Source: Lentilactobacillus parabuchneri DSM 5707 = NBRC 107865
GTDB taxonomy: Bacteria > Bacillota > Bacilli > Lactobacillales > Lactobacillaceae
Direction of reading: 5' to 3'
NCBI RefSeq assembly: GCF_001435315.1
Contig: NZ_AZGK01000019.1
Span: 1-37,319, forward strand
Length of the DNA: 37,319 bases
Part shown: positions 15,117 through 33,239 of the stretch, in pieces
Position numbering within the stretch: position 1 is the stretch's first letter
Layout of the letters: the number at the start of each line of letters is the position of its first letter
Notes under the pieces: generated by a model
What the model was told of the DNA's origin: nothing
Databases searched by the model: none
The model's input: only the letters and a program-made list of their open reading frames with translations
Translations under genes and position numbers: made by a program

Positions 15117-16241
15117 ATGCCAAATAAAGCAGATGTTAAGGCTTGGAAAGCACAATTAGTCGCCCAGGCTGAACAGCAAATCCTAAAATTAACTGATAGT
15201 GACCAATTTAAAAAGTATCTCAATACCCTGGCTAAATTTCATCGTTATAGCGCCAGAAACATTGATTTAATTTATGCGCAAAATCCTCAAGCCACTCAAG
15301 TCGCCGGTTTTAAGCAATGGCAGAAGGCTTTTAACCGCACCGTCAACCGGGGCGCAAAAGCGATTCGGATTGCGGCTCCGATCATTAAGAAGCTAACACC
15401 AGCCGAGCAGAAGCATCTTGATACCACCGATGAGCGCGCCATTGTCGGTTATCGCTATCTACCCGTCTTTGATGTGGCACAAACTAGCGGTGAACCAGTG
15501 TTAAGTGCTAAAGACTTTGTCAAAGAAAATTTGGCCGATCATCAGAATGTGACAAGCTTGTATAACGCATTCAAGGACTATCTCAACCAGCAAACCGACC
15601 TTAAAGTCAGTGAAGTGCCTTTAGCGACGCTAAATGGGGCTAAGGGGTATTTTCAACCCAGCACTAATGAAATCGTCATTGGTGGCGATGAGCCCGATAA
15701 TGCTTTAAAATTGAAGACGTTATATCATGAATATGCGCATAGCCAGCTACACGGATTAAAATCAGCCTTTAAAGATCGGCCACGAGCCTATCAGGAAACC
15801 CAAGCCGAAGCGATCGCGTATGTTGCCATGCAAAATATTGGCGTTGATACCAGCAACTACTCCCTCGGTTACGTGGCCACCTGGGCTAAAGATAAAGCCG
15901 TGATCCATAGTGCTTTAAGTGAGATCCAGCAAGTGAGCAACAAAGTGATTGAGCTTAGTGATGGCTTAACCAAACAATTAGGCTTACAAGAAGCCCCAAA
16001 AGAACCTGAGCATGATCTAAAAAAGCTATCAGCCCATGATCTTAATAAGTCCTATCAAGGCTTGCAACAACAAATTCAACAAGCAACTAGTCCACAACAG
16101 AAAGCACAATTTAAAAAACAGTTAAACGATGTGCACCAAGAAATCAGTGAGCGAACTCAAAAGCAACTGAAAGCATTTGCTGAACAGAATCCGGAGATCA
16201 AACAACCCGAATCCGAACTTGATCAAAGTCTAAAACGTTAG
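15117..16241 (+). CDS. ardC: ArdC-like antirestriction / zincin-domain protein
   Basis: A 374-aa protein with the two-part layout of ArdC. The N-terminal ssDNA-binding-type domain (1-125) includes KFHRYSARNIDLIYAQNP and GFKQWQKAFNRTVNRGAKAI. A zincin-like metallopeptidase domain has LYHEYAH (HExxH at 204-208) and a downstream Glu (227 or 231, in QETQAEAIAYV) as third ligand. ArdC proteins shield incoming plasmid DNA from the recipient's restriction enzymes. The C-terminal 90 residues are a Gln/Lys-rich coil. It is the last gene of the transfer operon, and the same plasmid carries a type I restriction system. A diverged fragment of the same gene tail lies after fic. Confidence 0.85.
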   Translation: MPNKADVKAWKAQLVAQAEQQILKLTDSDQFKKYLNTLAKFHRYSARNIDLIYAQNPQATQVAGFKQWQKAFNRTVNRGAKAIRIAAPIIKKLTPAEQKHLDTTDERAIVGYRYLPVFDVAQTSGEPVLSAKDFVKENLADHQNVTSLYNAFKDYLNQQTDLKVSEVPLATLNGAKGYFQPSTNEIVIGGDEPDNALKLKTLYHEYAHSQLHGLKSAFKDRPRAYQETQAEAIAYVAMQNIGVDTSNYSLGYVATWAKDKAVIHSALSEIQQVSNKVIELSDGLTKQLGLQEAPKEPEHDLKKLSAHDLNKSYQGLQQQIQQATSPQQKAQFKKQLNDVHQEISERTQKQLKAFAEQNPEIKQPESELDQSLKR

Positions 16242-16672: not shown

Positions 16673-17860
16673 TCAGCAAAACATCTTTTGTAGATACCCT
16701 TTTTTAAGTTCTTGGAGTTTTTCAAGCTTACGCTGATGAAGAGCGATGAGGTGGTCAAGATTATCGAAAAACTTACCAATTTGAACTTGTTCAGGTAATG
16801 TTGGAACTTTAAAATTAATCTTCATCATGACATCGGCGTTTAATTTAGCACGTCCACCGCCGACTAAATATGGTTCTATGTTGGTATGTTTCAAAGCGTT
16901 CGTCAAAAATTTGTTGTCCACTCTTTCTTCTTTAGCTTGAAGAACGTGGGCATGATTGTTGACCCAAACCTTACCATCAACATATTGAACAGGGTAGTTT
17001 TGTAAATCATTCGCACCGTCTTCTGCGACCAAAACAAATTCACCATTGTGAGTAAAACCTTCAACATAGTCCTGAATACCATTTGCACCGTAATAAGGTG
17101 TTTCCCCAGCTACACGTTCGGATGCTGTAATTGGAACTCGAAGATTATCATAGCGGTCTGCTAGTTCCGAAACCTTACGCTGTTCCCAAGCGTCAGCAAA
17201 CCCCGCAAATCGCAATTCAGGAACTTTTGCGCCATTTTTTGGAAACATTTTTTGCAAGTAGCCTTTTTTCTGTTCCTTGAGCAAATCTAACTTACGCTGG
17301 TTAGCAGCGATAAGGTTGTCCACATTCTCAAGAAAGCGCGCAATCTTACTTTGTTCTTCCAAGTTTGGTAGCGGAATTGGCATCTGGACAAAGTCTTTGT
17401 CTTTAATTGCAAACCGATCAGCACGAGCACCTGTGTCCCCGTTAAGTTCCATGAATCGATGCCACTTTGTACTTGAAAAGTATTTTTCCAAGTACATACC
17501 ATCAACGTTGTGCGCTCGGAAAATGTAATAAAGCGGTGACATAACGCCGGTACGTCCCAGTGTATTGCGCTTAATTGGGCCAACGGGCGCGAAGTTTGAA
17601 ATTCGAGGGTTATAAACAAAGTCACCGTCGCGTACAACATAATACGTGTTCAAGTTTTTCTCGTTTGAAATATCCTTATCAAAAAAATCACGTTGGCTGA
17701 TAATGCCATACTCGGCTGAGTTGGTTAATGTCTCCGAAAATTCATTATCTGAGTTCTTTTCGGTGACCTTTTCAGATATATCGCCTAACCTACGCTTTTC
17801 CCAAGGGTCAGTAAACCCTTTAAATCTTAACTGCGGGTAACTAGCTTGTTGATCTTTCAT
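16673..17860 (-). CDS. hsdS: Type I restriction-modification specificity subunit
   Basis: A 395-aa HsdS with two target-recognition domains. Each is followed by a conserved helical repeat: LEEQSKIARFLENVDNLI...KKGYLQKMF near 165-210 and LPEQVQIGKFFDNLDHLI...KKGYLQKMF at the end. The half-subunits open with WEKRRLGDI and WEQRKVSEL. The two domains define the two halves of a split DNA target, which cannot be read from sequence. Its ATG overlaps the hsdM stop (ATGA), giving coupled translation. No second hsdS or invertase lies next to it, so phase-variable shuffling is not evident. Confidence 0.95.
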   Translation of the reverse strand: MKDQQASYPQLRFKGFTDPWEKRRLGDISEKVTEKNSDNEFSETLTNSAEYGIISQRDFFDKDISNEKNLNTYYVVRDGDFVYNPRISNFAPVGPIKRNTLGRTGVMSPLYYIFRAHNVDGMYLEKYFSSTKWHRFMELNGDTGARADRFAIKDKDFVQMPIPLPNLEEQSKIARFLENVDNLIAANQRKLDLLKEQKKGYLQKMFPKNGAKVPELRFAGFADAWEQRKVSELADRYDNLRVPITASERVAGETPYYGANGIQDYVEGFTHNGEFVLVAEDGANDLQNYPVQYVDGKVWVNNHAHVLQAKEERVDNKFLTNALKHTNIEPYLVGGGRAKLNADVMMKINFKVPTLPEQVQIGKFFDNLDHLIALHQRKLEKLQELKKGYLQKMFC

Positions 17861-19473
17861 TTGTGGGCCTCCGGTTTTGACTGGTCATTAACCTGGGTGG
17901 TCACTAACTGGCTAGCTAATTCATTAAAGATTTGTTCATTCTGACTGATTTCCTCGTCCAGTTGCTTTAGATCAGCTTTGACCTGGTTCAGATCAATCTC
18001 GGGTTCCGGTTCAAACGTATCAACGTAGCGCGGAATATTTAAGTTGTAGTCATTCTCCTTGATTTCTGCCGGTGGGGCCACATGGGCATATTTATCGACA
18101 TCTTGCCGGTTTTGATAAGTGGTCACAATTTTTTGAATATTCGCTGCCGTTAGCTTATTTTGATTCTTGTCCTTTTCAAATTCCCGGGAGGCATCAATAA
18201 ACAAGACGTCATCAGTGGTTTTATGTTTCTTTAAAATCATGATTAACGTTGGAATACCAGTGGAATGAAAAATATTGGCGGGTAGTCCAATAATGGCATC
18301 AATCCGGTTATCTAACAGGAGCTTTTGGCGAATCTTGCCTTCCTTAGCCCCCCGAAATAGCACGCCATGGGGTAAGACGATGCCCATAGTTCCATGCTCC
18401 TGCAGATGATAAAAGCCGTGTAGCAGAAAGGCAAAGTCGGCTTTAGATTTAGGTGGTAAGACGCCATAGTCGCGGAAACGGGGATCAGACAAGCGTTTAT
18501 CACTGTTATCCCAGTGTGCCGAGTAGGGCGGGTTCATAACGACGGCATCAAATAAGTAAGGCTCGTCAACCGGCCAATCTTTACTTAACGTGTCACCATT
18601 GCGTAGGTGCATATCGTCATACGAGACTCCATGTAACATTAGGTTCATACGGGCCAGGTTATAGGTCGTGGTGTTCAATTCTTGGCCGTGATAACTCACT
18701 AAGCTGGGATTTTGCACGTGCTGTCCGACATTCAACAGCAGCGAACCAGAACCAACTGCTGGATCATAGATAGTCCGCACTTGGTTGTCACCCGCATTGC
18801 GCTGATAAGTCACAATCTGAGCAATAATGTCGGACACCTGCCGTGGAGTATAAAATTCACCCGCTTTTTTACCGGAATCACTGGCAAATTGCGCGATTAA
18901 GTATTCATAGGCGTCACCTAGGACGTCGCCTTGATGATGGATAAGATCAATCGCATTTAAAGCTAACATAGTATCACTAATAGTTTGGTTCCGTTGTTGT
19001 AAAGAACTGCCTAATTTATTACTACTTAAATCCACATCGGCAAACAAGCCCGAAAAGTCTTGCGCTGAAGATAGATTTTGTGTCGACTGTTCCAGATCAT
19101 GAAGTGCTTGAGATAAATCGTCTAACGCAAAAGTATGGGCTTGAATCTTGCCAATCAGGGTGGCGTACAACGCTTGTGGTTGAATTAAATAGCCCAGCGT
19201 GTTTTGCAAATACTCAACTAAACTGGGCTGCACTGAGACGCCTTCCAACTCAAACTGCGGATCCATATACTGAGCATATTTCCGGGTGACATTTTCGGTT
19301 TCGCCTGCCCAGTCACTAAAGGTCGTTAAGGTTTTCTCAGATAGAAACCGATAAAAAATTAACCCTAATAAATAGTTTTTATATTCAGAGGCGTCCATTT
19401 TCCCGCGTAAGACATCGGCCGCATTCCATAGGGCGCTTTCAAGTTGGCTAGCTTGAGTTGTTTTTTCTGACAT
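17857..19473 (-). CDS. hsdM: Type I restriction-modification DNA adenine methyltransferase subunit
   Basis: A 538-aa HsdM. The N-terminal helical domain is followed by the SAM-binding methylase fold: DPAVGSGSLL (237-246) is motif I and NPPY (314-317) is the catalytic N6-adenine motif. GEFYTPRQVSDII (205-217) is the family-typical stretch before motif I. With HsdS it forms the methylase; with HsdR the nuclease. It lies 13 bp after hsdR and overlaps hsdS. Length and neighbours fit the EcoR124-like type IC group. Confidence 0.96.
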   Translation of the reverse strand: MSEKTTQASQLESALWNAADVLRGKMDASEYKNYLLGLIFYRFLSEKTLTTFSDWAGETENVTRKYAQYMDPQFELEGVSVQPSLVEYLQNTLGYLIQPQALYATLIGKIQAHTFALDDLSQALHDLEQSTQNLSSAQDFSGLFADVDLSSNKLGSSLQQRNQTISDTMLALNAIDLIHHQGDVLGDAYEYLIAQFASDSGKKAGEFYTPRQVSDIIAQIVTYQRNAGDNQVRTIYDPAVGSGSLLLNVGQHVQNPSLVSYHGQELNTTTYNLARMNLMLHGVSYDDMHLRNGDTLSKDWPVDEPYLFDAVVMNPPYSAHWDNSDKRLSDPRFRDYGVLPPKSKADFAFLLHGFYHLQEHGTMGIVLPHGVLFRGAKEGKIRQKLLLDNRIDAIIGLPANIFHSTGIPTLIMILKKHKTTDDVLFIDASREFEKDKNQNKLTAANIQKIVTTYQNRQDVDKYAHVAPPAEIKENDYNLNIPRYVDTFEPEPEIDLNQVKADLKQLDEEISQNEQIFNELASQLVTTQVNDQSKPEAHK

Positions 19474-19486
19474 TGTTTAACCTCAC

Positions 19487-22400
19487 TTATTTTTGTAGAT
19501 AAATTGCTAAATCGTGTTCAATAAACTGCCGCCAAGCGGCCTGGGACTTAATCCGGTATAGTGGCAAAACAGCTGGAATCTTCGGCCCAGCGGCAGTTTG
19601 AGCTTGTAAGGCCGCTGCTAAATTCGCTGACTGCGTTAATTCTTGTTCATGATGCCATTCATCAGTACCCACGGTGTGTTCACGTGCCACCCGTAATAGG
19701 GCTGCTTGATCTAAGCCCCACGTATGGGCAAAGGTCGTCGTTTTTTTGACCAATTGTTTCTGGGCGTAATCAGCCACCAACTCCCGAGCATTCAACGCTA
19801 CTGGCGCTTTATTTTGGTCACTCTGTTGCTGAAACTGTTGCATTTGTTGCTCAATATAAGGCATGGCTTCGCGAATTAACTGGGCCTGTTGCGGTTGCGT
19901 TTCCGCTAATTTATTCAAACTAGCCTGTACTTTGGCACTATTTTGCAGATAATCCCTCATATGCGCTTGGGCTTGATCAGGTGTCGTGTACTGTTGCTGT
20001 TCATCAATCCAATCTTGAATTAATTGCGTCAAATAATCATAATCCACCAAGACGACTGAACCAACGGCCAAGGAAAAGTCTAAGGCAGCTAATTCTTCGG
20101 GGACTTTCTCAGGCTCTTGGTTAGTAACCGCCGCTTTAATCCGCAGATATTTACCCGTATAGGATTCTACTTCGGGCTGAGCGATACCAAAAGTCTTTTC
20201 GCTGTTCTCCCAAGTGAAATCGTTGTACATGGATAAGGAATTCAATTGTTGATTCACTTGGCGAAAGGCTTTCACAAACTGTACCTTGGCAGTAGTTCCT
20301 TTAAGGTCATCGGCAGCCGTCGGCGTTGGAGCAATGGCTTTTAAATCCACCACAGCCTTTTGAAATTTTAAGACGGCCTGCTGATAAGTGGGACGAATGA
20401 TGACATTAAAAGAGCCTTCGCCACTATATAACTTGTAAGCTTCACGTTCATTAGCTTCCATGATTGCCGGTACCCGAAAGGTCACAATTTGGCCTTCTTG
20501 TTTTAATTCCCGGTTTTGGAGCCGGTTGGTGCGTGAGTAGGCTTGAATAAGTTCTTGATAGGCTAAGGTGCGGTCAACAAAGAGCGTGTTTAGCCGAGGG
20601 GCATCAAAGCCTGTTAATAAACGGCGTACGACAATCACTAAATTTATTTCTTGATCCGTTTGTAAATGAGCAAAGACAGCCTCACGCCGGGCGGCCCGTT
20701 TCGCGACATCTTCGTTGTAGAGATTCAAATCAGTTAAATCAAAATTAGTGTGATACTGCTGATTATAATCTTTTAAAATGGTGGCCATTTGGTCATGTTT
20801 GTGCGCACTCTGATCTTCGTTTTCACTTAATGAATAAGTAATCGCAATTCGGGGCCAATCAGGATCTAGCTGATTGTGAGTGGCCCTTTTAGCGGCCTTA
20901 AAGGCTTGATAATAGCGTTGCGCCATTTCAATGGAACTGGTGGTCAAAATCGCATTATAGTTGCCATGACCCAAACTCGTTTTACGCGGGCCTTTTTGTA
21001 AAATATATTGAACAACTTGTTGGATATGTTCATCAGTCTCAAAGTCAGCCGGAGTTAAATACGTTTCTTCCAAGTCCTTCACTGACATCGCTTGAATCTT
21101 GGCTTGAATTTTCGCTTCATCAGCCGTACTCAGCAAGCGGCCTTGTTTATCTCGACGAGTTTTAACACATTGGGTTTCTTTTTCAAGGGCCCGGGTTATT
21201 AAAGCGTCTTTACCAATCGTTGTCACGTGTTCCACATTAAACGGTAACACGGCTTGGTCCTCTAAGGCGTCTCGCAAGTTATAAACGTGACAGACTTTAC
21301 CAAATAGCTCCTCCGTCGTAACTGCTAGATCACCCTTGAGCTGTTTTTTATTTTCATTAAAGATGGGGGTGCCGGTGTAACCATACCAATTACTATTGAC
21401 AAATGCTGCCCGAATTTCCTTTTGCATCTTACCAAATTGCGACCGGTGGGCTTCATCAACAAAGAAGATCACCCGTTGCTTTAAAGTTTTACTAAAGCGG
21501 GATTGCTTACCGGTTGCCAGCTGGGCTTGCGTTTTTTTGACCGCCCGATGAAGTTTTTGAATCGAGGTGACCAAGACCTTACCGTCATTTTGTTGCAATT
21601 TACGCATTAAATCACCGGTATTTTGGGCTTCGTTAATGGCAATATCGTCATTGGCAGCATAGGCACTAAAGTTGCTGGTTGTCTGTTCGTCTAAATCCCG
21701 CCGGTCAACTAAGAAGATGACCTTATCGACACCGGGATCTTGCGCCGCTAATTTAGCGGTTTTATATGAGGTGAGTGTTTTACCAGAACCCGTGGTATGC
21801 CAAACAAAGCCATCTTGATGGTCATGAATTCGATGCATGACAGCCTCAATCGCATAAATCTGATAAGGCCGTAAGAGAATTAAGCTCTGACGCTCTTGGT
21901 CGATGACCGTATATTCACTGACCATTTTGTGGGCCATGGGAATATTAAGGACTTGGCGCGTGAACGCTAAGCCGTTTTCCACGGGGTGATTATCGCGAGT
22001 CCGCCAATTAAACAAAAAGGCTTTATTGAAATGATCCGGTTCGGCATTCGCAAAATACGCCGTACTATCTGGTGTCATAATCACAAACATTTGCAGCAGC
22101 GAGTAAATCCCCGTATATTTACCTTCTTGCGCATATTTTTCAATTTGATTAAAAGCCTGGTTAAGTTCGACCGTGGCTTTTTTTAGTTCCAATTGAATTA
22201 AGGGTAACCCATTAATCAATAGGGTTACGTCAAAACGGCGATCAGGATCGATGTCTTGAGTACCAGCTAACCGTGGTCGTACCGCTTGCCGCACCACTTC
22301 ATAACTAGATTTACCACCAGCGACGTCCGCTTTCCAAAAGAATTCCAGGGTGACGGTCCTCAATTTGGCATCATCACGTTCAATTTTAACTTTGCCAATG

Positions 22401-22654
22401 CCATTTTCGGCGGCTAGTAACTTAGCTGCTTCGTAAGGTGTCCGGACCTCAATCGCCCGTTTAACTTGATTAAATTCGGTATCAGTTAAAGGGTGTCCCT
22501 GCAATTTAGCATAGTTATTGTTATTTAATTTATCGCGAAAATTAGCCCATAATTGATCCGGCGTCGCACCATACAGGTCTTTGCGTTCCACCCATTGATT
22601 ACTTCCGGTCGTTAAGGTTTTAACAACTTCTTTTTCAAACGACAGTTCCAACAT
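19487..22654 (-). CDS. hsdR: Type I restriction endonuclease subunit
   Basis: A 1055-aa motor-nuclease. The N-terminal PD-ExK nuclease has Asp142, Glu156 and Lys158 (LELKKA), with the same spacing as EcoR124I. The SF2 translocase has HTTGSGKT (286-293) and DEAH (400-403), with later helicase motifs YGYTGTPIF and LTGFDAPRLNTLFVDR. The long C-terminal helical part binds HsdM/HsdS. Length is close to type IC HsdR. AGGAAC precedes the ATG, and a TATAAT box at 22695-22700 (minus) may start the hsdRMS transcript. No frameshift is seen, so the system looks complete. Confidence 0.96.
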   Translation of the reverse strand: MLELSFEKEVVKTLTTGSNQWVERKDLYGATPDQLWANFRDKLNNNNYAKLQGHPLTDTEFNQVKRAIEVRTPYEAAKLLAAENGIGKVKIERDDAKLRTVTLEFFWKADVAGGKSSYEVVRQAVRPRLAGTQDIDPDRRFDVTLLINGLPLIQLELKKATVELNQAFNQIEKYAQEGKYTGIYSLLQMFVIMTPDSTAYFANAEPDHFNKAFLFNWRTRDNHPVENGLAFTRQVLNIPMAHKMVSEYTVIDQERQSLILLRPYQIYAIEAVMHRIHDHQDGFVWHTTGSGKTLTSYKTAKLAAQDPGVDKVIFLVDRRDLDEQTTSNFSAYAANDDIAINEAQNTGDLMRKLQQNDGKVLVTSIQKLHRAVKKTQAQLATGKQSRFSKTLKQRVIFFVDEAHRSQFGKMQKEIRAAFVNSNWYGYTGTPIFNENKKQLKGDLAVTTEELFGKVCHVYNLRDALEDQAVLPFNVEHVTTIGKDALITRALEKETQCVKTRRDKQGRLLSTADEAKIQAKIQAMSVKDLEETYLTPADFETDEHIQQVVQYILQKGPRKTSLGHGNYNAILTTSSIEMAQRYYQAFKAAKRATHNQLDPDWPRIAITYSLSENEDQSAHKHDQMATILKDYNQQYHTNFDLTDLNLYNEDVAKRAARREAVFAHLQTDQEINLVIVVRRLLTGFDAPRLNTLFVDRTLAYQELIQAYSRTNRLQNRELKQEGQIVTFRVPAIMEANEREAYKLYSGEGSFNVIIRPTYQQAVLKFQKAVVDLKAIAPTPTAADDLKGTTAKVQFVKAFRQVNQQLNSLSMYNDFTWENSEKTFGIAQPEVESYTGKYLRIKAAVTNQEPEKVPEELAALDFSLAVGSVVLVDYDYLTQLIQDWIDEQQQYTTPDQAQAHMRDYLQNSAKVQASLNKLAETQPQQAQLIREAMPYIEQQMQQFQQQSDQNKAPVALNARELVADYAQKQLVKKTTTFAHTWGLDQAALLRVAREHTVGTDEWHHEQELTQSANLAAALQAQTAAGPKIPAVLPLYRIKSQAAWRQFIEHDLAIYLQK

Positions 22655-22694
22655 TTAAAAAGTTCCTCTCGATGTCTACCTAGTTTACTAGTTA

Positions 22695-22700
22695 ATTATA
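22695..22700 (-). promoter_or_regulatory. Candidate -10 box of hsdRMS
   Basis: Perfect TATAAT on the minus strand about 40 bp before the hsdR ATG, with no good -35. hsdRMS may also be read through from the upstream ATPase gene, since no strong terminator separates them. Confidence 0.4.
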
Positions 22701-22785
22701 TGCTATTAGATAAGCGCTTCGATTTATAATTCCATTGATAGAATCAGTTTCTATGTCCACAAACTTTGATATGGAGCCCCACAGT

Positions 22786-24939
22786 TCATTTTGCAAGGCT
22801 ACTTAACCATTTTAAAATATCGTGCTTATTACTCTTATTCATTAAATCTCCTGCCATTTGTTCAACATGAAATCTGTCTTTGTTATATAAAACTTCAAGT
22901 AGAAATCTGATGTTACGTTGTAACTCACGCGATGAAATTGAATTTTCATCGGCAAACGTCATTCCGTGAGATAATGAGTTTATAACATCCAACATATTTT
23001 TAAAATCATCATCAGCATTATCCGGGATTCGATAAAACTCTTTTAATTTGTCATGCTCTCTATTTGTTGTATATTCTATTCTATAATGTGTTCTAGCATG
23101 TGATTCAAATAGCAAACGTGCTTTGTTGCCATAAGAAATATAGTTATCAGTGGGAAGCTTCTCTTGTGGTATTAGAGCAAATTGAAACACATCCTTAAAA
23201 TTTGCTTGATAATAATCAGAATAATTCTTTTTCTCATCGGGGCCTGCAATACTAATTGAACTATTTCCCTGACCATTTTTACTAATTTTGAACCATTCTG
23301 TCTTTTCTTTATTTGCATTAAAACCAAAATTATGAAAGTCTAAAGACGAATGGGTAAATATAAATAATTGACTATCCAACGAAGATAATTCTTTTATAAG
23401 CTTATTTACTAATTCCGTTAAATAATATCTATTATTAATATCTAAGCTTGTAATTGGATCATCTATTATGATTAAATCCACACCTGGAGCTAGTGATTTA
23501 TAAGGCTTATCAAATAAGTCAAAATAAAATTGTAAAAATCCTAATAATCGACATTCACCCTCACTTAAATCTTTTGTGCTAAGTTTTTCATCAGATATAG
23601 TGCTTTTTACCAGATAGTGTTGGTCATCTTGCATTATTTTCAGTCTGAAATTTAATCCTAATAAAGCGAATTGATGGTTCGATAGGTCTCTGAATGTTTT
23701 TAAATCAGATGTTTCAGATTCTTTCATTGCTATCCATTTATTATTGTCACGGATAATCATGGTATATTTATCAATTAGGTCTTTTGCTTTTTGAATACCT
23801 TCTATAATTTTGGGAATTTCGTTGTTTTCTTGTAATTGATTTCCCACCCATGATTTAGCGACAGACTCGATTTGAGATAACTGTGCATTAATACTCTTAA
23901 TCTTTTCACGATAACTGGAAATATTTTCCTGTAATGAATCGTAAAAATTTGAAAAATCAGAAAAATTAATATCATTTACAGGTATAGGGATAGACGTATC
24001 TTTAACTTTGCTACCTATTTTTACTCTCATATCGTCAATAAAATTAATAACAGATTCTGTATCGAATTCACCAAAGTTGGTTTTTATTGTTAATATTCTT
24101 TCTCTTATACTATTCAAATCCTTATCCATGATTTGCAAAGCTTGGATATATTTTGCATGTTCATTGTTCACTTTCTCTTCAATTTCTTTAGCGATCTCAG
24201 GGCCATCAAATTTATTTCCACAAAATCTACAAATTTCATCGTGATTTGCCATATTATGTACATTTAAGCCCTTACTGATCCACTCTACAATTTCATTTGT
24301 TATGTTTTCAGAAGGATTCGGTATCGGCTTTGCCATTGCTTCTGAAAATTTATCAAAACGATCTTTATTAATTGGAGATTGTAAATTGAGATTGTCAATC
24401 TCAGTTTGATATAGTTTTATTTGTTGTTCCAATTCTTTTGAAGAGTTAGGTATTGACAGATTGGGATGTATATCCCTAATCCATAAGTGAAGTGCTTCGA
24501 CCGGATTATTTTTAGCATGTTGCTTTTGCTTTATATTTTTTGAGAGATCAAAATGTTTTTTAGCTTGTGCTAATGTATTATTCAAAATGATAAACAAACT
24601 TTTATTTTTTTCATCAAGGGCCCTTTCAAATTCATTTATTTTATTTTGAATATTTTCATTAGCATCTTTGATACTCATTACACTTTTTTCAATATCCACC
24701 GCTGTCTGACCTACAGTCAGCTTTACACCTTTTAAAGAATCTTGAGTTAATATATTCTTTTGCACGTATTCTGAATTAAAAATTCTTGAGTTACTTAAGT
24801 CAGTTTCTACTAACCATCTTGCCAATGAAGTTTTCCCACTACCATTTGTCCCAAAAATAATATTTATTTTCTTAAATTTATCTTTTGAAGAATAATCGTT
24901 AAAAGACTTACTATTAATATTCATAATTTCTTGGATCAT
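22786..24939 (-). CDS. rloC: RloC/PrrC-like ABC ATPase, candidate anticodon nuclease
   Basis: A 717-aa ABC-type ATPase of the AAA_13 group. Walker A GTNGSGKT is at 30-37, signature LSEGE at 458-462, Walker B LIIIDDP near 489-495 and the H-loop His530. Long coiled coils flank CRFC (Cys237, Cys240), a zinc-hook-like CxxC as in RloC and Rad50. The C-terminal 180 residues after the ATPase contain R608-x3-E612 and His658 in NSLSHG, comparable with the Arg-x3-Glu...His triad of PrrC and RloC, although the gap to His is longer (46 versus about 30). Those enzymes cut tRNA anticodons when phage inhibits restriction. It lies directly upstream of hsdR, which supports the link. It could instead be an AAA_13 ATPase of another defence type. 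Confidence 0.7.
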   Translation of the reverse strand: MIQEIMNINSKSFNDYSSKDKFKKINIIFGTNGSGKTSLARWLVETDLSNSRIFNSEYVQKNILTQDSLKGVKLTVGQTAVDIEKSVMSIKDANENIQNKINEFERALDEKNKSLFIILNNTLAQAKKHFDLSKNIKQKQHAKNNPVEALHLWIRDIHPNLSIPNSSKELEQQIKLYQTEIDNLNLQSPINKDRFDKFSEAMAKPIPNPSENITNEIVEWISKGLNVHNMANHDEICRFCGNKFDGPEIAKEIEEKVNNEHAKYIQALQIMDKDLNSIRERILTIKTNFGEFDTESVINFIDDMRVKIGSKVKDTSIPIPVNDINFSDFSNFYDSLQENISSYREKIKSINAQLSQIESVAKSWVGNQLQENNEIPKIIEGIQKAKDLIDKYTMIIRDNNKWIAMKESETSDLKTFRDLSNHQFALLGLNFRLKIMQDDQHYLVKSTISDEKLSTKDLSEGECRLLGFLQFYFDLFDKPYKSLAPGVDLIIIDDPITSLDINNRYYLTELVNKLIKELSSLDSQLFIFTHSSLDFHNFGFNANKEKTEWFKISKNGQGNSSISIAGPDEKKNYSDYYQANFKDVFQFALIPQEKLPTDNYISYGNKARLLFESHARTHYRIEYTTNREHDKLKEFYRIPDNADDDFKNMLDVINSLSHGMTFADENSISSRELQRNIRFLLEVLYNKDRFHVEQMAGDLMNKSNKHDILKWLSSLAK

Positions 24940-25007
24940 TTTATCGCCCCGTAATTATGTTTTATTAGAAAATTTAGATTATCTACTTAGTAATACTAGC
25001 ATAGTCG

Positions 25008-25035
25008 ATTATAATAAAGAAACTTTGATCGTTAA
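25008..25035 (-). promoter_or_regulatory. Promoter of the RloC-like gene
   Basis: Minus strand: -35 TTAACG (25030-25035), 16-bp spacer, -10 TATAAT (25008-25013). The leader would be about 60 nt. The ribosome site before the ATG (GGGGC) is weak. Confidence 0.5.
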
Positions 25036-25036
25036 G

Positions 25037-25100
25037 GTATACCCTAATGGTCTTTTTTACTTCTGTGCTATACTAGGAATTACAAGTGTTCATTAGAACT
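25037..25100 (+). promoter_or_regulatory. Resolvase promoter and candidate res region
   Basis: An extended -10 TGCTATACT (25066-25074) precedes the resolvase gene. Short inverted elements lie around it (GGTATACC at 25036-25043; GTTC-ATTA-GAAC at 25088-25099). Resolvases of this class bind such subsites next to their own gene; the subsites here are only suggestive. Confidence 0.4.
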
Positions 25101-25120
25101 GTCCAAAGGGAGAATTGGAA

Positions 25121-25705
25121 ATGGCTAAAATCGGTTATGCGCGTGTGAGTTCCAAGGAGCAACATTTAGATCGACAGTTAGCGGCTTTAAAAGACGTTGA
25201 TAAATTATTTACGGATAAATTAAGTGGGGCTAACACTAATCGGCCAGAACTGCAAAAAATGCTGGCCTATATTCGTGAGGGTGATATTGTAATGGTCACT
25301 GAATTAGATCGCTTAGGCAGAAACAACCATGATTTGACTAAGATCATGAACTCCATTCAAAATAAGGGTGCCACCCTAGATGTGTTGAATTTACCGTCCA
25401 TGACAGGGATTGCTGACCCCAATTTACGTCAACTCATGACCAACCTCATTATTGAACTTTATAAATACCAAGCTGAAAGTGAACGTAAGCGGATCATTGA
25501 GCGTCAGCAACAAGGGATTTCCCTAGCCAAACAGCAGGGCAAATATCATGGTCGCAAGCCTCAATACGCTGAAGATGATCCCCGTTTGTTACATGCCTTT
25601 AAACTTTATCAAAATGGTATGAGCGATGTGGATGTGGCTCGAAATACTGGGATTAAGCGGACAACCTTTATTCGGTATCGAAAGAAATTCAGTGTGTATA
25701 GATAA
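25121..25705 (+). CDS. Serine recombinase (plasmid resolvase)
   Basis: A 194-aa resolvase/invertase of the Tn3/gamma-delta size class. The catalytic domain starts AKIGYARVSSKEQ with Ser10 as nucleophile; VTELDRLGRN and the following AESERKRIIERQQQGI helix are typical. A C-terminal HTH (GMSDVDVARNTGIKRTTFIRY) binds DNA. The start at 25121 follows AAGGGAG; a TTG two codons earlier is less likely. The probable job is dimer resolution of the plasmid, as no Tn3 transposase is next to it. It is divergent from the RloC-like gene. Confidence 0.92.
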   Translation: MAKIGYARVSSKEQHLDRQLAALKDVDKLFTDKLSGANTNRPELQKMLAYIREGDIVMVTELDRLGRNNHDLTKIMNSIQNKGATLDVLNLPSMTGIADPNLRQLMTNLIIELYKYQAESERKRIIERQQQGISLAKQQGKYHGRKPQYAEDDPRLLHAFKLYQNGMSDVDVARNTGIKRTTFIRYRKKFSVYR

Positions 25706-27344: not shown

Positions 27345-28316
27345 ATGAAGAAAGTGCCTGTTAAAAAGAATTTGCATAATCATAGAAAACATAATCAATA
27401 TAAATTCAAAAAAATATTTTGGTTGTTTCTATTATTGTTATTGATTTTAGGGGTAGGTGTTGCTGGAATTGCCTATCGTAATATTTATAGGGCAACCACT
27501 ATTGTTTACAAAAAAGCGAATGCTCATAAAGAACGAAACGCTGGCAAGTTAATTGATAATAAACGCCCTATTTCTATTTTACTTTTAGGAACTGATACAG
27601 GCGCTCTTGGTCGCACGTATAAGGGGAGAACTGATACGATGATTATTATGTCAATTAATCCTCAAAAACAGAAAACTGTTATGATGAGTTTGCCACGCGA
27701 CATGAAAGTTAATTTATCTGGGTATTCGGAGTATTCTCCCGCTAAAATTAATGCTGCTTACACTTATGGTGGTACTAAAGAATCTATCGATACGGTTCAG
27801 AAATATTTAAAAGTCCCGATTGATTACTATGTTTTAGTTAATATGGGAGGGCTAAAAAAAGCTATCAACCAAGTTGGCGGAGTTACTGTAGTTTCACCAC
27901 TTACTTTTACATATTTAGGAGACCATTTTGTTAAGGGAAAGAAGTATCATTTATACGGGAATGATGCATTAAAGTTTTCCCGTATGCGGTACAGTGATCC
28001 ACAAGGTGATTATGGACGACAATTACGTCAACGGTTGATTTTAACAGGCCTATTAAAAAAATCGTTTTCGTATAGGACTTTCCTGTCTAGCAGTTTTTTA
28101 AAAACAATTTCTAACCAAGCTCAAACTGATTTGAATCGTTCTCAAATGTTTGGTTTATCAATAAACTATCGTAAAGCTGGTAACCATGTTGTTTCTGATC
28201 ATGTTCAAGGAGTAGGTAAGGAAATTGGTGGTCAAGATTTTGAAGTGGTTTCAAAATCTGAATTGATAAAATCATCAAATATTATTCGAAATAATTTAGG
28301 ATTGACGCGTTATTAA
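27345..28316 (+). CDS. cpsA: LytR-CpsA-Psr family protein, first gene of the polysaccharide operon
   Basis: A 323-aa membrane-anchored LCP enzyme, thought to transfer lipid-linked polymers to the cell wall or regulate their synthesis. A basic N-terminus (1-25) is followed by one membrane helix (about 25-46, FWLFLLLLLILGVGVAGIA). The extracellular LCP domain has LLLGTDTG, YKGRTDTMIIMSI, SLPRDMKV, and RYSDPQGDYGRQLRQR with the pyrophosphate-binding Asp and Arg residues. AGGAG lies close to the ATG (3 bases). It leads a same-strand operon that runs to at least 33239. Confidence 0.92.
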   Translation: MKKVPVKKNLHNHRKHNQYKFKKIFWLFLLLLLILGVGVAGIAYRNIYRATTIVYKKANAHKERNAGKLIDNKRPISILLLGTDTGALGRTYKGRTDTMIIMSINPQKQKTVMMSLPRDMKVNLSGYSEYSPAKINAAYTYGGTKESIDTVQKYLKVPIDYYVLVNMGGLKKAINQVGGVTVVSPLTFTYLGDHFVKGKKYHLYGNDALKFSRMRYSDPQGDYGRQLRQRLILTGLLKKSFSYRTFLSSSFLKTISNQAQTDLNRSQMFGLSINYRKAGNHVVSDHVQGVGKEIGGQDFEVVSKSELIKSSNIIRNNLGLTRY

Positions 28317-28345
28317 TTCTATATATAAATTTTTTGGAGGACAGC

Positions 28346-29203
28346 ATGGAAAATTATTTGGACCTTCGCCAAATATTAGGGATTATTCGTAAACATATTA
28401 TCTTTATCATAATTAGTTTTATCCTTTGTTTAATTATTGCTGTTGGTTTAGAGAAGTTTGTTATTACACCCCAGTTTACTTCGACTGCTCAAATTTTGGT
28501 TAATCAAAAAAAAGATACTTCAGTTCCAGGGGCAGCTTTTCAGGATCAGCAAGCTGATGTTCAAATGATCAGTACTTATAAGGATATCATTACAAACCAA
28601 TTGGTTTTGAAAACAGCTAGTGAGCGATTAGCTAATCCTGTCAAAGTAATTCGTTCAGCACGAAAGGCTCGATACCATGTTTCAGCAAATGGTCATCGTC
28701 ACTTAATTAAAGCATCACGGCCAGCTGTTGTTAAATCAACAGGGACTCCTTATGATGTGAGCGTTAAACAATTACAGGGAGCTATTTCTGTTACTAATCA
28801 ACAAAACTCACAAGTTTTTGCTTTAAATGTGGAGAGTGATGATCCACAAAAATCAGCTGCAATCGCTAATACAGTTGCACAGGTTTTTAAGCAAAAGATT
28901 CGTCGAATTATGAGTATTAATAATGTCACCATTGTTTCTGAGGCGACACCTGTAAAGCAGAAGTCGTTCCCTAAAACTTCAATAGTGTTACTAGCTGGGG
29001 CGGTAATTGGCTTACTGGTTGGTCTTGGCTATGCGTTCATTAGAGAATTAACAGATACAACAATTAAAGATGATGAATTTTTAACCAATGAGTTAAAATT
29101 GACTAATTTGGGTCACATAGCAGAAATTCGTAAAATACATGGTTCACATTTGGCTAATAAACGTCATGAAAAGCATCTTAAACCGAATCATCGAAGAGTT
29201 TAA
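28346..29203 (+). CDS. cpsC: Polysaccharide chain-length regulator / kinase activator (Wzz-type)
   Basis: A 285-aa Wzz-domain protein with two membrane helices, about 17-39 (HIIFIIISFILCLIIAVG) and 215-235 (IVLLAGAVIGLLVGLGYAF), around an extracellular part containing the PCP-type strand FTSTAQILVNQKK. The Pro-rich KQKSFPKTS precedes the second helix. In Gram-positives this protein activates the CpsD tyrosine kinase and sets chain length. The ATG at 28346 follows GGAGG. Confidence 0.9.
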   Translation: MENYLDLRQILGIIRKHIIFIIISFILCLIIAVGLEKFVITPQFTSTAQILVNQKKDTSVPGAAFQDQQADVQMISTYKDIITNQLVLKTASERLANPVKVIRSARKARYHVSANGHRHLIKASRPAVVKSTGTPYDVSVKQLQGAISVTNQQNSQVFALNVESDDPQKSAAIANTVAQVFKQKIRRIMSINNVTIVSEATPVKQKSFPKTSIVLLAGAVIGLLVGLGYAFIRELTDTTIKDDEFLTNELKLTNLGHIAEIRKIHGSHLANKRHEKHLKPNHRRV

Positions 29204-29227
29204 ATTTTAATTATGTAGGAGAAAATT

Positions 29228-29983
29228 ATGAACATTTTTCATCGTAAAGAAAAAAAGCTTTCCACCGATACTTTAAGGAATGGTGTGAAGCTAATTACTG
29301 ATGTTGATCCTAAAGACGTTGTTTCCGAACAATTTCGTACAGTTAGGACAAATATTAATTTTTCAGCAGTTAATCAAAAGTTAAAAACAATTATTTTTAC
29401 TTCTTCGGCAGTTAGCGAGGGGAAATCAACTGTTTCCGCTAATTTGGCGGTCATTTGGGCTCAGCAAGGGCAGAAGGTTCTATTTATTGATTCAGACTTG
29501 CGACGTCCAACTTTGCATACGACATTTGGTTTATTAAATACCAATGGCCTATCCACGGCTTTATCCACTGATATAGATTTCAATTCAGTAGTGCAAAAGA
29601 CGGAGATTGATAATTTATCTGTGATCACTAGTGGTCCCATTCCACCTAATCCATCAGACCTGTTGGCTTCTAATCGGATGAAAGAATTAATTTCTTATTT
29701 TAAGAAAATCTATGATGTGATTATTTTAGATGTTCCGCCATTATTGTCAGTTACTGATACGCAAATTATTGCAGCTCAGGTTGATGGGGTGGTGTTGGTA
29801 GTGCGCCAAGGATTAGCACAAAAATTAGCTATAAAGCGCTCAACTGAACTCTTAAAAATGGTTAAAGCCAATTTATTAGGTTATGTATTAAATGACGTTG
29901 CACCTAAGAATGGGTACGGTTATGGCTACGGTTATGGCTATGGTTATGGCTATGGGTACGGTTATGATAATGAGGGTAAATAG
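29228..29983 (+). CDS. cpsD: Tyrosine autokinase (BY-kinase)
   Basis: A 251-aa bacterial tyrosine kinase: Walker A SAVSEGKST near 62-70, Walker A' LFIDSDLRRPT, Walker B VIILDVPPLL. The C-terminal cluster is an uninterrupted run of nine Gly-Tyr pairs (encoded at 29912-29965) followed by DNEGK. The tyrosines are the autophosphorylation sites that tune polymer export with CpsC, and the phosphatase encoded next removes the phosphate. The hexamer DNA repeat makes the tail prone to length change. Confidence 0.94.
   Translation: MNIFHRKEKKLSTDTLRNGVKLITDVDPKDVVSEQFRTVRTNINFSAVNQKLKTIIFTSSAVSEGKSTVSANLAVIWAQQGQKVLFIDSDLRRPTLHTTFGLLNTNGLSTALSTDIDFNSVVQKTEIDNLSVITSGPIPPNPSDLLASNRMKELISYFKKIYDVIILDVPPLLSVTDTQIIAAQVDGVVLVVRQGLAQKLAIKRSTELLKMVKANLLGYVLNDVAPKNGYGYGYGYGYGYGYGYGYDNEGK
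29912..29965 (+). repeat. Hexanucleotide tandem repeat encoding the Gly-Tyr tail
   Basis: Nine consecutive units of GGN-TAY. Slippage by whole units would add or remove phospho-acceptor tyrosines without breaking the frame. Confidence 0.9.
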
Positions 29984-30005
29984 TTGCCAAGGGATATGAT
30001 ATAAA

Positions 30006-30773
30006 ATGATTGATTTGCATTGTCATTTGCTTCCAGGGGTGGATGACGGGTCTAAAAGTATGGATATTTCTTTGAAATTAGCTAATGATGCAGTAAGGGA
30101 TGGCATCGACTATGCATTATTAACGCCGCACCATATGAATGGTGTTTATCTTAATCATAAAAGGGCAGTTATTCAGCAAACACAAGAGTTTCAAATGGAG
30201 CTTGATAGACACAAAATTCCACTCAAAGTTTTCCCTGGGCAAGAAGTTAGAATAAATGGCGATTTATTAACCGCTCTTGATCAAGATGATATTTTATTTG
30301 CTGATGAGGGTGGGCAATACTTAATGTTAGAATTTCCGGATGACGATATCCCAAATTATACTAGTAATATGATTTATGAACTTATGCAACGGGGAATCAT
30401 ACCGGTTATCGTTCATCCAGAACGTAATACTAAGATTATGAAACAACCAGATATTTTATATGATTTGTTAAATAAAGGTTGTCTTTCTCAAATAACAGCT
30501 GGCAGTTATGTTGGAATCTTTGGTCACAAAGTACAAAAATTTAGTAAACAATTAATTCAGTCTGGACAAGTATACATTTTTGCTTCGGATGCTCATAATT
30601 TACCTAATCGTAAATATGAAATGACCAATGCTTTTGCAAAATTGGGTAATGAATTTGGGAATGACTATGTATCCAAATTTAATGAAAATGCCAAAAGAAT
30701 AATTAATGGTGATAATATTCTATCCAATGATTTTTCTAAAATAAAAACACATTTGTTTCATTTTTTTAAATAA
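30006..30773 (+). CDS. cpsB: PHP-family protein-tyrosine phosphatase
   Basis: A 255-aa manganese-dependent phosphatase of the CpsB/Wzb PHP class. The start MIDLHCHLLPGVDDGS is the family signature; LTPHHMNGVY, FPGQEVRI, IPVIVHPERN and FASDAHNLPNRKYEMT supply the remaining metal ligands. It reverses CpsD phosphorylation. The tail ENAKRIINGDNIL is matched by a fragment of a second phosphatase gene at 35305-35475. No strong ribosome site is visible (AAGGGATATGATATAAA upstream). Confidence 0.92.
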   Translation: MIDLHCHLLPGVDDGSKSMDISLKLANDAVRDGIDYALLTPHHMNGVYLNHKRAVIQQTQEFQMELDRHKIPLKVFPGQEVRINGDLLTALDQDDILFADEGGQYLMLEFPDDDIPNYTSNMIYELMQRGIIPVIVHPERNTKIMKQPDILYDLLNKGCLSQITAGSYVGIFGHKVQKFSKQLIQSGQVYIFASDAHNLPNRKYEMTNAFAKLGNEFGNDYVSKFNENAKRIINGDNILSNDFSKIKTHLFHFFK

Positions 30774-30794
30774 GGGGGAGGTGATGTATACTTT

Positions 30795-31499
30795 ATGCAA
30801 ACTGAGAGACGTAGTGGAGGAGATCCTAAATACGGTCATCCAATGACAGATAATAACGTAGTCGTAGTAAATAAGGAACGAGTTGAGCGACGCTTCTTTT
30901 ATCATTTTTTCAAAAGATTTTTTGATATATTATTAAGTATAATTGATATCATTCTTTTAACCCCTGTATTTATTATTACTGCCATTTTGATAAAAGTTGA
31001 CAATCCAGATGGTCCAATAATTTATTCTCAAATTAGAATTGGGAAGAATGGACACCCTTTTAGAATGTATAAGTTTAGATCAATGGTTGTAAATGCTGAT
31101 AAAATGTTAAAGGGCTTACTAGATCAGAATGATATAGAGGGCGCTATGTTTAAAATGAAATCGGATCCGCGAGTCACTAAAATTGGTCGAACTATTCGAA
31201 AATATAGTATTGACGAACTCCCACAATTACTAAATGTAATTAAGGGAGATATGTCTTTAGTAGGGCCTAGGCCTCCGTTAAAAAGAGAGGTGGAGGATTA
31301 TACTGAATATGATAAACAACGGTTATTGGTTGTCCCAGGATGTACAGGAATTTGGCAAATTAGCGAAAGAAATAAAGTTGGATTTCATGAAATGGTGAAA
31401 TTGGATATTAAGTATATAAATAGTTCAAATTTGTGGCTTGATTTTTTTATATTGTTTAAAACTATTTGGATAATTTTTTTCCCTAATAGTGCATATTGA
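30795..31499 (+). CDS. cpsE: Priming sugar-phosphate transferase
   Basis: A 234-aa polyprenyl-phosphate sugar-1-phosphate transferase that loads the first sugar onto undecaprenyl phosphate. One membrane hairpin lies at about 40-65 (LLSIIDIILLTPVFIITAI). The catalytic region follows: YSQIRIGKNGHPFRMYKFRS, DPRVTKIGRTIRKYSIDELP, GDMSLVGPRPPL and PGCTGIWQISERN. It is the short form without the extra N-terminal helices. GGGGGAGGTG lies upstream. The sugar (glucose, galactose or other) cannot be told from sequence. Confidence 0.93.
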   Translation: MQTERRSGGDPKYGHPMTDNNVVVVNKERVERRFFYHFFKRFFDILLSIIDIILLTPVFIITAILIKVDNPDGPIIYSQIRIGKNGHPFRMYKFRSMVVNADKMLKGLLDQNDIEGAMFKMKSDPRVTKIGRTIRKYSIDELPQLLNVIKGDMSLVGPRPPLKREVEDYTEYDKQRLLVVPGCTGIWQISERNKVGFHEMVKLDIKYINSSNLWLDFFILFKTIWIIFFPNSAY

Positions 31500-31508
31500 G
31501 AGGAGACT

Positions 31509-31961
31509 ATGATGAAAATTTGTTTGGTTGGATCAAGTGGTGGTCACTTAACACATTTACACATGTTAAAAAGATTTTGGGGGAATAAGGATAGGTTCTG
31601 GGTAACTTTTCCCAAAGAGGATGCTGAATATTTATTAAGTAAGGAAAAAACATACCCGTGTTACTTTCCTACCAATAGAAACATTAAGAACCTGATAAGA
31701 AATACTTTTTTAGCTTTTAAAATCCTTATAAGAGAAAAGCCTGATTTAATAATTTCTTCTGGGGCGGCAGTCGCAGTTCCCTTCTTTTATGTTGGAAAAA
31801 TTTTGGGTATCAAGACTATTTATATAGAAGTATTTGACAGAATAGATAAGCCTACCTTAACTGGAAAATTAGTTTATCCGATCACTGATTTATTTATAGT
31901 GCAGTGGAAAGAAATGAAGAAGATTTATCCGAAAGCTAAATATTTAGGGAGCATATTTTAA
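31509..31961 (+). CDS. cpsF: CpsF/Alg14-like glycosyltransferase partner
   Basis: A 150-aa protein with the Alg14 signature KICLVGSSGGHLTHL at the start and ISSGAAVAVPFFYVGK in the middle. In streptococcal serotype 14 the homologue boosts the activity of the galactosyltransferase encoded next. GAGGAG precedes the ATG (31509 or the next codon). Its stop overlaps the following start (TAATG), so the two subunits are translated together. Confidence 0.92.
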   Translation: MMKICLVGSSGGHLTHLHMLKRFWGNKDRFWVTFPKEDAEYLLSKEKTYPCYFPTNRNIKNLIRNTFLAFKILIREKPDLIISSGAAVAVPFFYVGKILGIKTIYIEVFDRIDKPTLTGKLVYPITDLFIVQWKEMKKIYPKAKYLGSIF

Positions 31962-32452
31962 TGATTTTTGTTACTGTAGGTACTCATGAACAACCATTTA
32001 ATAGACTAATAAGGAAAATAGACATATTAAAGGGACAAAATAAAATTATGGATGATGTATTCATTCAAATAGGTTATAGTACCTATATTCCTAAATATTG
32101 TCAATATAAGAGATTTATTTCACAATCAAAAATGGAGTGCCTTATTAAAATGTCCACTATAGTTATTACACATGGTGGCCCATCTTCCTTCATTGGGGCA
32201 TTGAAGCAAGGTAAAATGCCCATAGTAATACCACGACAGAAAAAATTCAATGAACATGTTAATAACCATCAACTCCTTTTTTGCAAAGAGTTGCAAAAAA
32301 GGGGCTTTCCTATAAAAGTAGTTATTAGCGAAAACGATTTATATGAAGTAATCAATGATATGCAATATACTGAAAACAAGAAATTTCACAGTAATAATAA
32401 AAGATTTAACCAGGAACTAGATGCTTTAGTGAAAAATATGTTTAATAGTTAG
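31961..32452 (+). CDS. cpsG: CpsG/Alg13-like glycosyltransferase catalytic subunit
   Basis: A 163-aa GT28 C-terminal-type protein: MIFVTVGTHEQPFNRLI, then ITHGGPSSFIGAL and IVIPRQKKFNEHVNNHQ, the nucleotide-sugar binding motifs. It pairs with the preceding protein, as Alg13 with Alg14, probably adding the second sugar (often beta-1,4-galactose). Length is normal. Confidence 0.92.
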   Translation: MIFVTVGTHEQPFNRLIRKIDILKGQNKIMDDVFIQIGYSTYIPKYCQYKRFISQSKMECLIKMSTIVITHGGPSSFIGALKQGKMPIVIPRQKKFNEHVNNHQLLFCKELQKRGFPIKVVISENDLYEVINDMQYTENKKFHSNNKRFNQELDALVKNMFNS

Positions 32453-32477
32453 TAGATTATTTAAGGAGTAGAATTAT

Positions 32478-33239
32478 ATGATACCTAAAGTTATTAATTA
32501 CTGTTGGTTTGGGGGAAAAGCCTTGCCAAGGAAGGTTAAATTGAACATAGATTCATGGAAAAAATTTTGTCCTGATTATAAGATTATTCAATGGAACGAA
32601 AAAAATTTTGATGTTAATAAATATTGTTTTGCCAGAGAAGCCTATGAAAAAAAGAAATGGGCATTTGTATCAGATGTAGCCCGTTTAGATATTATTTATA
32701 AACATGGTGGGATTTATCTGGATACTGATGTTGAATTAATTAAAAGCTTAGATCCGGTGTTAAATGCCCAAGCCTATTTTGCTTGTGAAGATCGTTTTTC
32801 TGTCGGTACTGGTCTTGGATTTGGATCTGTTAAGAAAAATGAATTTATTTTGTCTAATCTTAAAGAATATAAAAATAAGCATTTTATAAATTCTAATGGT
32901 TCATTAAATGAAATACTTTGTGTTGACGTGACAACACATTTGCTTTCATTGATGGGTTTTAAAGCTAATGGATCTAAGCAAATAATAAATGGGATGGTTA
33001 TTTATCCAAGCTCTTATTTTTGCCCTATCCAGCTTGGTCACCGAAATAATAAGGTATCATCTAATACTATATCTATACACCATTATAGTGCATCTTGGAA
33101 GGAAGCATCTGATAATATTAAAGGAAGCGACAGAATGATTATCTTAAAAAAATATATTAAGCATTATGTTGATTATATATGTGGATATGGTACATATAAT
33201 AAATTCAAAAAAATATTAAGGATGAAAAATAATTTTTGA
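32478..33239 (+). CDS. GT32-like glycosyltransferase with DXD motif
   Basis: A 253-aa glycosyltransferase of the GT32/capsular-synthesis type. MIPKVINYCWFGGK at the start, SDVARLDIIYKHGGIYLDTD (DXD, binding the nucleotide-sugar metal) and SIHHYSASW near the end are family landmarks. The sugar and linkage are unknown. AAGGAG precedes the ATG. It is the last intact gene of the compact operon; the next reading frame is degenerate. Confidence 0.88.
   Translation: MIPKVINYCWFGGKALPRKVKLNIDSWKKFCPDYKIIQWNEKNFDVNKYCFAREAYEKKKWAFVSDVARLDIIYKHGGIYLDTDVELIKSLDPVLNAQAYFACEDRFSVGTGLGFGSVKKNEFILSNLKEYKNKHFINSNGSLNEILCVDVTTHLLSLMGFKANGSKQIINGMVIYPSSYFCPIQLGHRNNKVSSNTISIHHYSASWKEASDNIKGSDRMIILKKYIKHYVDYICGYGTYNKFKKILRMKNNF

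Follow-up and report, generated by a model that had tools for sequence, protein, structure and literature searches.

The window examined here, a contig of 37,319 bp, carries directly before a type I restriction operon a gene for an ABC ATPase with the marks of an anticodon nuclease. This raises the question of whether such a nuclease would be held in check by the neighbouring restriction enzyme, in the manner of PrrC, or would be switched by its own ATPase, in the manner of RloC. The features of the gene are listed below; a preliminary description had already given the ORF and the positions of Walker A, CxxC, the signature, Walker B and R608/E612/H658, and all of these were confirmed.

22786..24939, minus strand: rloC-like gene, 717 aa, ABC ATPase split by a long CxxC insert, with a predicted C-terminal nuclease domain (ORF, profile, alignment)
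24829..24852, minus strand: Walker A GTNGSGKT, residues 30–37 (motif inspection)
24220..24231, minus strand: zinc-hook-like C237-R-F-C240, invariant in nine of nine aligned proteins, the window's included, in each of two alignments
23455..23568, minus strand: ABC signature LSEGE (458–462) to Walker B LIIIDDP (489–495) (motif inspection)
22789..23259, minus strand: C-terminal domain, residues 561–717, predicted HEPN/anticodon-nuclease domain (profile comparison, dN/dS)
23104..23118, minus strand: R608 and E612 of the putative catalytic triad (alignment)
22966..22968, minus strand: H658 of the putative catalytic triad, with Ser (S657) just before it (alignment)

ORF calling gives an intact frame of 717 codons with an ATG start on the minus strand, and the plus strand over the same positions is riddled with stops. 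CRFC at 237 is the single CxxC of the protein, and the putative triad is laid out as R608-x3-E612-x45-SH658. The AAA_13 profile (PF13166), a search suggested by the preliminary description, matched nearly the whole length (E = 8.3e-43, 147.5 bits against a cut-off of 36; residues 19–683 on profile positions 12–711 of 713), and the best PADLOC match was PDC-S06 (E = 1.7e-32, residues 1–618), a candidate defence family by its PADLOC name. Residues R608, E612, N654, S657, H658, C237 and C240 are invariant in all nine aligned proteins (the window's and eight relatives, down to 19% identity), and the x45 spacing from Glu to His is kept in the window, two plasmid copies and six named subfamily relatives. 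A PDB search with the single 717-aa protein returned one match only, at E = 0.12, while a profile of nine proteins found the heads of Rad50 and AriA (best E = 1.2e-4), the remaining matches being weak and mostly unrelated; the C-terminal profile gave two implausible PDB matches (E = 0.11 and 0.2) and no credible sequence relative. Relatives are rare: 8 of 397 genomes of the family (its own included) and 1 of 398 of the phylum (its own) match at 1e-10. A scan of viral contigs gave one weak match, and a search of a phage collection gave two, with 24.0 and 21.8% identity.

The sections of PMC2610378 that define RloC describe PrrC-like ABC motifs, a Rad50-like insert with CxxC and a length of 658–897 aa, together with a triad of the form R-x3-E-x36-52-H in which a Ser often precedes the His. 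With 717 aa, a split ABC head (Walker A at 30, signature at 458, Walker B at 489), a putative zinc hook at C237/C240 in mid-insert, and x45 with S657 before H658, the window protein agrees with each of these features at the level of length, motifs and spacing. Its C-terminal domain aligned in hhalign over 129 columns (probability 93.7%, E = 1.8e-7) with a profile of five RloCs chosen from 16 sequence-assigned Lactobacillales RloCs; the five are loosely aligned around the His. The subfamily C-terminal profile aligned with four PrrC-like proteins over 11 columns only (probability 6.4%). According to the same sections of PMC2610378, PrrC proteins have 341–416 aa, the E. coli PrrC triad is R320-E324-H356 (x31) and that of Geobacillus kaustophilus RloC is R692-E696-H737 (x40), the mutation of which led to loss of activity; both nucleases are assigned to HEPN in the part of PMC3710099 cited here. 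The earlier remark that the His lies further away than in known enzymes thus holds against E. coli PrrC and G. kaustophilus RloC but not against the RloC range as given in PMC2610378, and the suggestion of a new subfamily that was drawn from it is rejected, since the published x36-52 covers x45.

For comparison within the order Lactobacillales, 295 genomes were searched with AAA_13, of which 31 match at 1e-7 and 28 lie above the cut-off. Sixteen of the 19 intact long proteins besides the window's were compared (L098, L101 and L104, which had the lowest scores, and broken copies were left out), as were four of six ORFs of 371–449 aa. These four short ORFs were named PrrC-like by size, absence of CxxC and hsd gene order. 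They have 375, 395, 433 and 442 aa, no CxxC and a spacing of x34-38, and all four are in hsd loci, between hsd genes. The window protein, with its 717 aa and its CxxC, has neither the size nor the hookless head of PrrC, and membership of PrrC was ruled out on these grounds; it shares with PrrC the linkage to type IC hsd genes, but rloC precedes the operon instead of lying between its genes. Among the 16 long proteins the spacing is x28 in L116-L118, x36 to x38 in L108, L109, L112 and L114, and x45-51 in L119-L123; within the x28-56 searched, L110, L111, L113 and L115 gave no credible triad His, the alignment placing an SH closer to R-x3-E in L110 and L115 and showing the triad residues lost in L111 and L113. 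It follows that AAA_13 proteins of RloC size do not all keep to the published range, nor do all of them retain the triad. As an observation in its own right, L110, L111, L113 and L115-L118 are proteins of this kind in which the SH is nearer to R-x3-E than the published range or the triad is lost.

In a tree built from the C-lobe of the head and the nuclease domain (31 rows, 249 columns), the window subfamily is one clade (100/99) among the RloCs, beside RloC L120 (82/88), and the PrrC-like proteins form a separate clade (100/100); the AU test did not reject a grouping of the subfamily with PrrC (p = 0.256). The residues N605 and S657 that flank the triad are as in most aligned RloCs. The motif around H658, INSLSHG, is nearer to the INLLSHG/VNLLSHG of two of the four PrrC-like proteins, which share the pattern NxLSHG, than to the DGSH or NSH of several RloCs. 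Of the designation 'RloC/PrrC-like', the RloC part is therefore borne out by size, split ABC head, CxxC, spacing and C-terminal profile, and the PrrC part is not, the PrrC-like proteins of 375–442 aa forming a clade of their own. The window protein looks like an RloC-type anticodon-nuclease candidate in a well-marked small clade. It is alike to the RloCs of G. kaustophilus and Acinetobacter baylyi in size, CxxC-split ABC head, R-x3-E-x36-52-SH and whole-length AAA_13 match; it differs from that of G. kaustophilus in its x45 as against x40. With the PrrC of EcoprrI it has in common an ABC ATPase, a triad in the same order and an adjacent type IC hsd operon; that PrrC is about half its size, lacks the zinc-hook insert and, in E. 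coli, has x31.

The restriction operon lies on the same strand in the order rloC-hsdR-hsdM-hsdS, 131 bp separating rloC from hsdR:

19487..22654, minus strand: hsdR, 1055 aa, type IC (EcoR124-like) (Pfam, PDB matches)
17857..19473, minus strand: hsdM, 538 aa (Pfam, PDB matches)
16673..17860, minus strand: hsdS, 395 aa, two Methylase_S stretches (Pfam)
22695..22700, minus strand: TATAAT before hsdR, a promoter-like site of hsdR's own

HsdR carries an EcoR124_C domain (Pfam), and its PDB matches at E = 1e-5 or better comprise five distinct HsdR sequences of 1038 residues, one named EcoR124II; the other four we take to be EcoR124I and variants. HsdM matches the M subunit of EcoR124II at 350 bits and 3lkd at 555 bits. 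The assignment of the adjacent system to type IC is well supported by these sequence matches, and the description of a complete type IC hsdRMS directly adjoining in the same orientation is upheld by EcoR124_C, the EcoR124-type PDB matches, the expected Pfam domains and the short gap. At the position of the hsdR TATAAT, 12 of 13 plasmids without rloC have TATAATAAACTAGTGAG, and the thirteenth (L031) has a different stretch with GTATAGTATAATAG. The contig was also said to be a mobile plasmid, and it does contain replication, partition and mobilisation genes (a RepA_N replication protein, a ParA-like protein and a MobA/MobL relaxase, besides a topoisomerase). Beside hsdS, at 15117-16241, the window encodes an ArdC-like protein (PF08401, E = 1.7e-5); several related plasmids likewise have a gene annotated as ArdC-like close to hsdS.

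Restriction neighbours recur in the subfamily. Latilactobacillus graminis has the same order, rloC (47%) - hsdR (30%) - hsdM (49%) - hsdS (25%), with a gap of 101 bp between rloC and hsdR; as this rloC heads a different hsdRMS operon, the pairing has recurred. In Staphylococcus caledonicus the rloC relative is followed immediately by fragments of a type ISP enzyme, and in Agrilactobacillus yilanensis a fused methylase-helicase of 1462 aa lies 1.6 kb upstream. The query set was restricted to type I and type ISP enzymes and a single fused enzyme; with it, restriction-modification genes of these three kinds were found near four of the seven full-length subfamily loci (the window and L020-L025; up to 10 kb a side). 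None were found with this set at L023, L024 and L025 over the same distance, or at the truncated relatives L012 and L019; for L008 and L009 the surroundings covered were 1.5 kb. Among the other RloCs of the order, 4 of 16 are near restriction genes (L108, L109, L112, L116), as are all four PrrC-like genes, and these raw counts (4/7 against 4/16) are not taken to indicate an excess of restriction linkage. A more distant RloC of Glutamicibacter directly follows hsdR, with hsdM further upstream. HSDR_N domains occur in 52 of 101 family genomes, and chance adjacency of rloC and restriction genes is estimated at under about 1%; but defence genes cluster in general, so that the data indicate a recurrent pairing, not control. 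Two side observations concern these loci. In L108 and L109 the RloC gene comes straight after hsdM...hsdR, so that RloCs linked to restriction genes are no great rarity in the order, and in L021, L023 and L024 (a Staphylococcus and two lactobacilli) the rloC relatives adjoin a SPOUT methyltransferase gene (rlmH, the SCC insertion site). In the 2008 survey, as reported in the cited part of PMC2610378, only 8 of 72 RloCs were in type I or III loci, whereas the window rloC stands directly before a type IC hsdRMS.

Comparison of plasmids gives the gene and the operon separate histories. At least 80% of the window hsdR is contained in 88 plasmids, of which only two carry rloC above 60% identity (L010, L011), and in each of these two it is followed by the same hsdRMS; rloC is intact and directly before hsdR in every one of the three plasmid copies. 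Between the window and L010, dS is 0.007 for rloC and 0.210 for hsdR, and the near-identical block spans about 22605 to 25046. The GC contents, 29.4% versus 44.2%, were likewise counted against a tight link between rloC and hsdRMS. HsdR of the two rloC carriers is 95.3 and 93.9% identical to the window's, and that of 13 others 94.1-96.2%. Among the 16 HsdRs compared no residue is diagnostic of the three rloC carriers, and co-adaptation of HsdR to rloC was ruled out on this basis.

The 13 other plasmids are a non-random set (L013 from a protein search, L030-L033 chosen for genes between matches, and eight hand-picked from the best 40 of 828), and their slot before hsdR is occupied by other defence, metabolic or mobile genes. 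It holds a 22% RloC in opposite orientation in L013, an AAA-family ATPase and a UvrD helicase in L030, TrlF in L031, two genes in L032, one weakly like GmrSD but below the cut-off, and a TIR protein with a methyltransferase in L033. L037 has a DncV-like cyclase somewhat further from hsdR, and the seven remaining plasmids have metabolic, HTH/polymerase or IS genes. The rloC-hsdRMS link is, by these sequence comparisons, a loose one, and rloC appears to move from plasmid to plasmid without the restriction operon beside it.

The other side of the exchanged block is marked by the following features:

25115..25705, plus strand: serine recombinase (resolvase) gene, 196 aa (ORF, Pfam)
25033..25046, no strand assigned: palindrome-like TAAGGTATACCCTA, edge of the exchanged block, possible resolvase site (plasmid comparison)
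25008..25035, minus strand: promoter-like site for rloC, TTAACG, 16, TATAAT, 10/12 (scan)

The palindrome is perfect, as TAGGGTATACCCTA, in L032, L033 and L039, and across six plasmids (the window, L030-L033 and L039) its right half TACCCTA is constant and its left half variable. When window positions 24833-25440 were compared with plasmids, 56 of the best 60 of 516 matches start at 25029-25039; among the same 60, the two rloC carriers match from the start, and the other two first match further along, one of these where its own record begins. Left of the edge, six further plasmids have mostly non-defence annotations (copper ATPase and repressor, CorA, sulfite exporter, ATP-binding protein, regulators, hypothetical). 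We infer that 25033-25046 is a candidate crossover site of the resolvase, through which plasmids of lactic-acid bacteria would exchange adjacent modules. The best candidate promoter for rloC extends into this edge; the promoter scan overall gave 14 sites against a shuffle mean of 14.8, no more than expected by chance.

Selection on rloC was estimated with our own Nei-Gojobori script. Against the Lactiplantibacillus plantarum copy (L011), the gene as a whole has a dN/dS of 0.29, with values of 0.50 for the insert, 0.16 and 0.12 for the two head parts and 0.056 for residues 561-717, so that the nuclease domain is the most strongly constrained part in this comparison. The value of 0.78 between the window and L010 comes from only 3 synonymous and 10 other changes, too few to interpret.

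Taken together, these data favour, with a probability of about 70%, a self-switched RloC, a tRNase with a HEPN-type nuclease triggered by DNA breaks and carried as plasmid cargo. The established part of this reading is the family, the residues and their conservation, the selection and the separate history of the cassette. By analogy with its relatives, the protein would be a dimeric ABC ATPase whose long insert, with its zinc hook, may sense broken DNA; ATP hydrolysis would release the C-terminal HEPN-type nuclease (R608, E612, H658), which zinc would otherwise restrain, and the released nuclease would cut tRNA anticodon loops and stop translation, such that a phage-damaged cell would yield no phage. 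The switch would be its own ATPase and hook, not mainly a restriction enzyme, and the gene would be cargo, a low-GC cassette of ~2.4 kb probably moved between lactobacillus plasmids and flanked on one side by a common type IC hsdRMS operon and on the other by a resolvase module. The sections of PMC3874168 cited here report that the activity of RloC is governed by its own ATPase and by linear DNA, that it cuts tRNA upon DNA breaks, and that A. baylyi RloC is activated by DNA breaks even in restriction-deficient cells. We infer that the window protein acts like these RloCs and would defend the cell or the plasmid against phages chiefly by its own switch.

The main alternative has the adjacent type IC complex hold the nuclease inactive until a phage anti-restriction factor frees it, a two-stage defence as put forward in the preliminary description. 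Its model is PrrC, which is held by EcoprrI and released by T4 Stp (in the parts cited of PMC3874168 and PMC12707154); in that of PMC11555353, a PrrC together with its type I genes confers protection from T1 and T7. The position of rloC on the same strand, 131 bp upstream of a type IC partner like that of E. coli PrrC, is what this arrangement would give; the L. graminis operon, with an rloC of 47% but an HsdR of 30%, an HsdM of 49% and an HsdS of 25% identity, the three kinds of restriction genes at subfamily loci, the rarity of chance adjacency when HSDR_N is found in only about half of the family genomes, and the PrrC-like motif around H658 also point towards it. However, the restriction neighbours of the subfamily are in no clear excess over those of the order's remaining RloC loci, and defence genes tend to cluster in any case; rloC is missing from nearly all plasmids with the window-type hsdR, and in the 13 viewed other genes precede hsdR; the histories of rloC and hsdR differ, with HsdR showing no co-adaptation; the C-terminal profile resembles RloC, not PrrC; and the ArdC-like gene beside hsdS, whose family (PF08401) takes its name from an anti-restriction factor, would sit badly with such a guard. 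We consider this alternative unlikely, though not far-fetched. The preferred reading of a self-switched RloC, taken alone, would for its part not predict rloC directly before hsdR in three copies and a relative before another hsdRMS in L. graminis. A combination of both, in which the clade of the window, L. graminis and S. caledonicus proteins would be repeatedly coupled to unrelated restriction systems and would respond both to DNA breaks, by way of its zinc-hook ATPase, and to failure of the adjacent restriction enzyme, would make it a bridge between RloC and PrrC on an exchangeable plasmid cassette at a resolvase site; we regard this as rather improbable.

The protein might also be a toxin that shares this ABC-ATPase architecture but whose C-terminal HEPN domain cuts another RNA (mRNA or rRNA) and not the anticodon loops of tRNA. 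The targets of HEPN RNases are diverse, according to the part of PMC3710099 cited here, and C-terminal identity to three RloCs and the four PrrC-like proteins is only 15-22%; but the register of the triad, N605 and S657 are those of most RloCs aligned, and the match to RloC C-terminal domains covers most of the domain, which leaves this a very unlikely reading. The idea that the gene currently plays no part in defence, being a neutral passenger or in decay, would fit the existence of truncated or split relatives (L007, L008, L009, L012) but is scarcely credible given its intactness in all three plasmid copies and the low dN/dS against the L. plantarum copy, above all in the C-terminal domain.

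RloC has been proposed to have swapped control by a restriction enzyme for an internal DNA-break switch, and whether RloCs still team with restriction enzymes is left open in the part of PMC3874168 cited here, where a section title asks it for enzymes encoded elsewhere. PrrC-style control of the window RloC by a restriction enzyme is possible. A ready natural experiment is offered by this plasmid RloC with its intact type IC neighbour, by the relative in front of another hsdRMS, and by the many plasmids in which the same hsdRMS occurs without rloC. The locus further suggests a site at which lactic-acid-bacterium plasmids exchange cargo, including defence genes. Elsewhere in the window, positions 889-1977 on the minus strand encode a 363-aa protein with an ADP-ribosyltransferase exoenzyme domain (E = 7.2e-30), and positions 27345-33239, after an IS256 element, hold a run of genes that, named by eye, reads as an exopolysaccharide operon (GYGYGY-tailed tyrosine kinase, priming glycosyltransferase and others).
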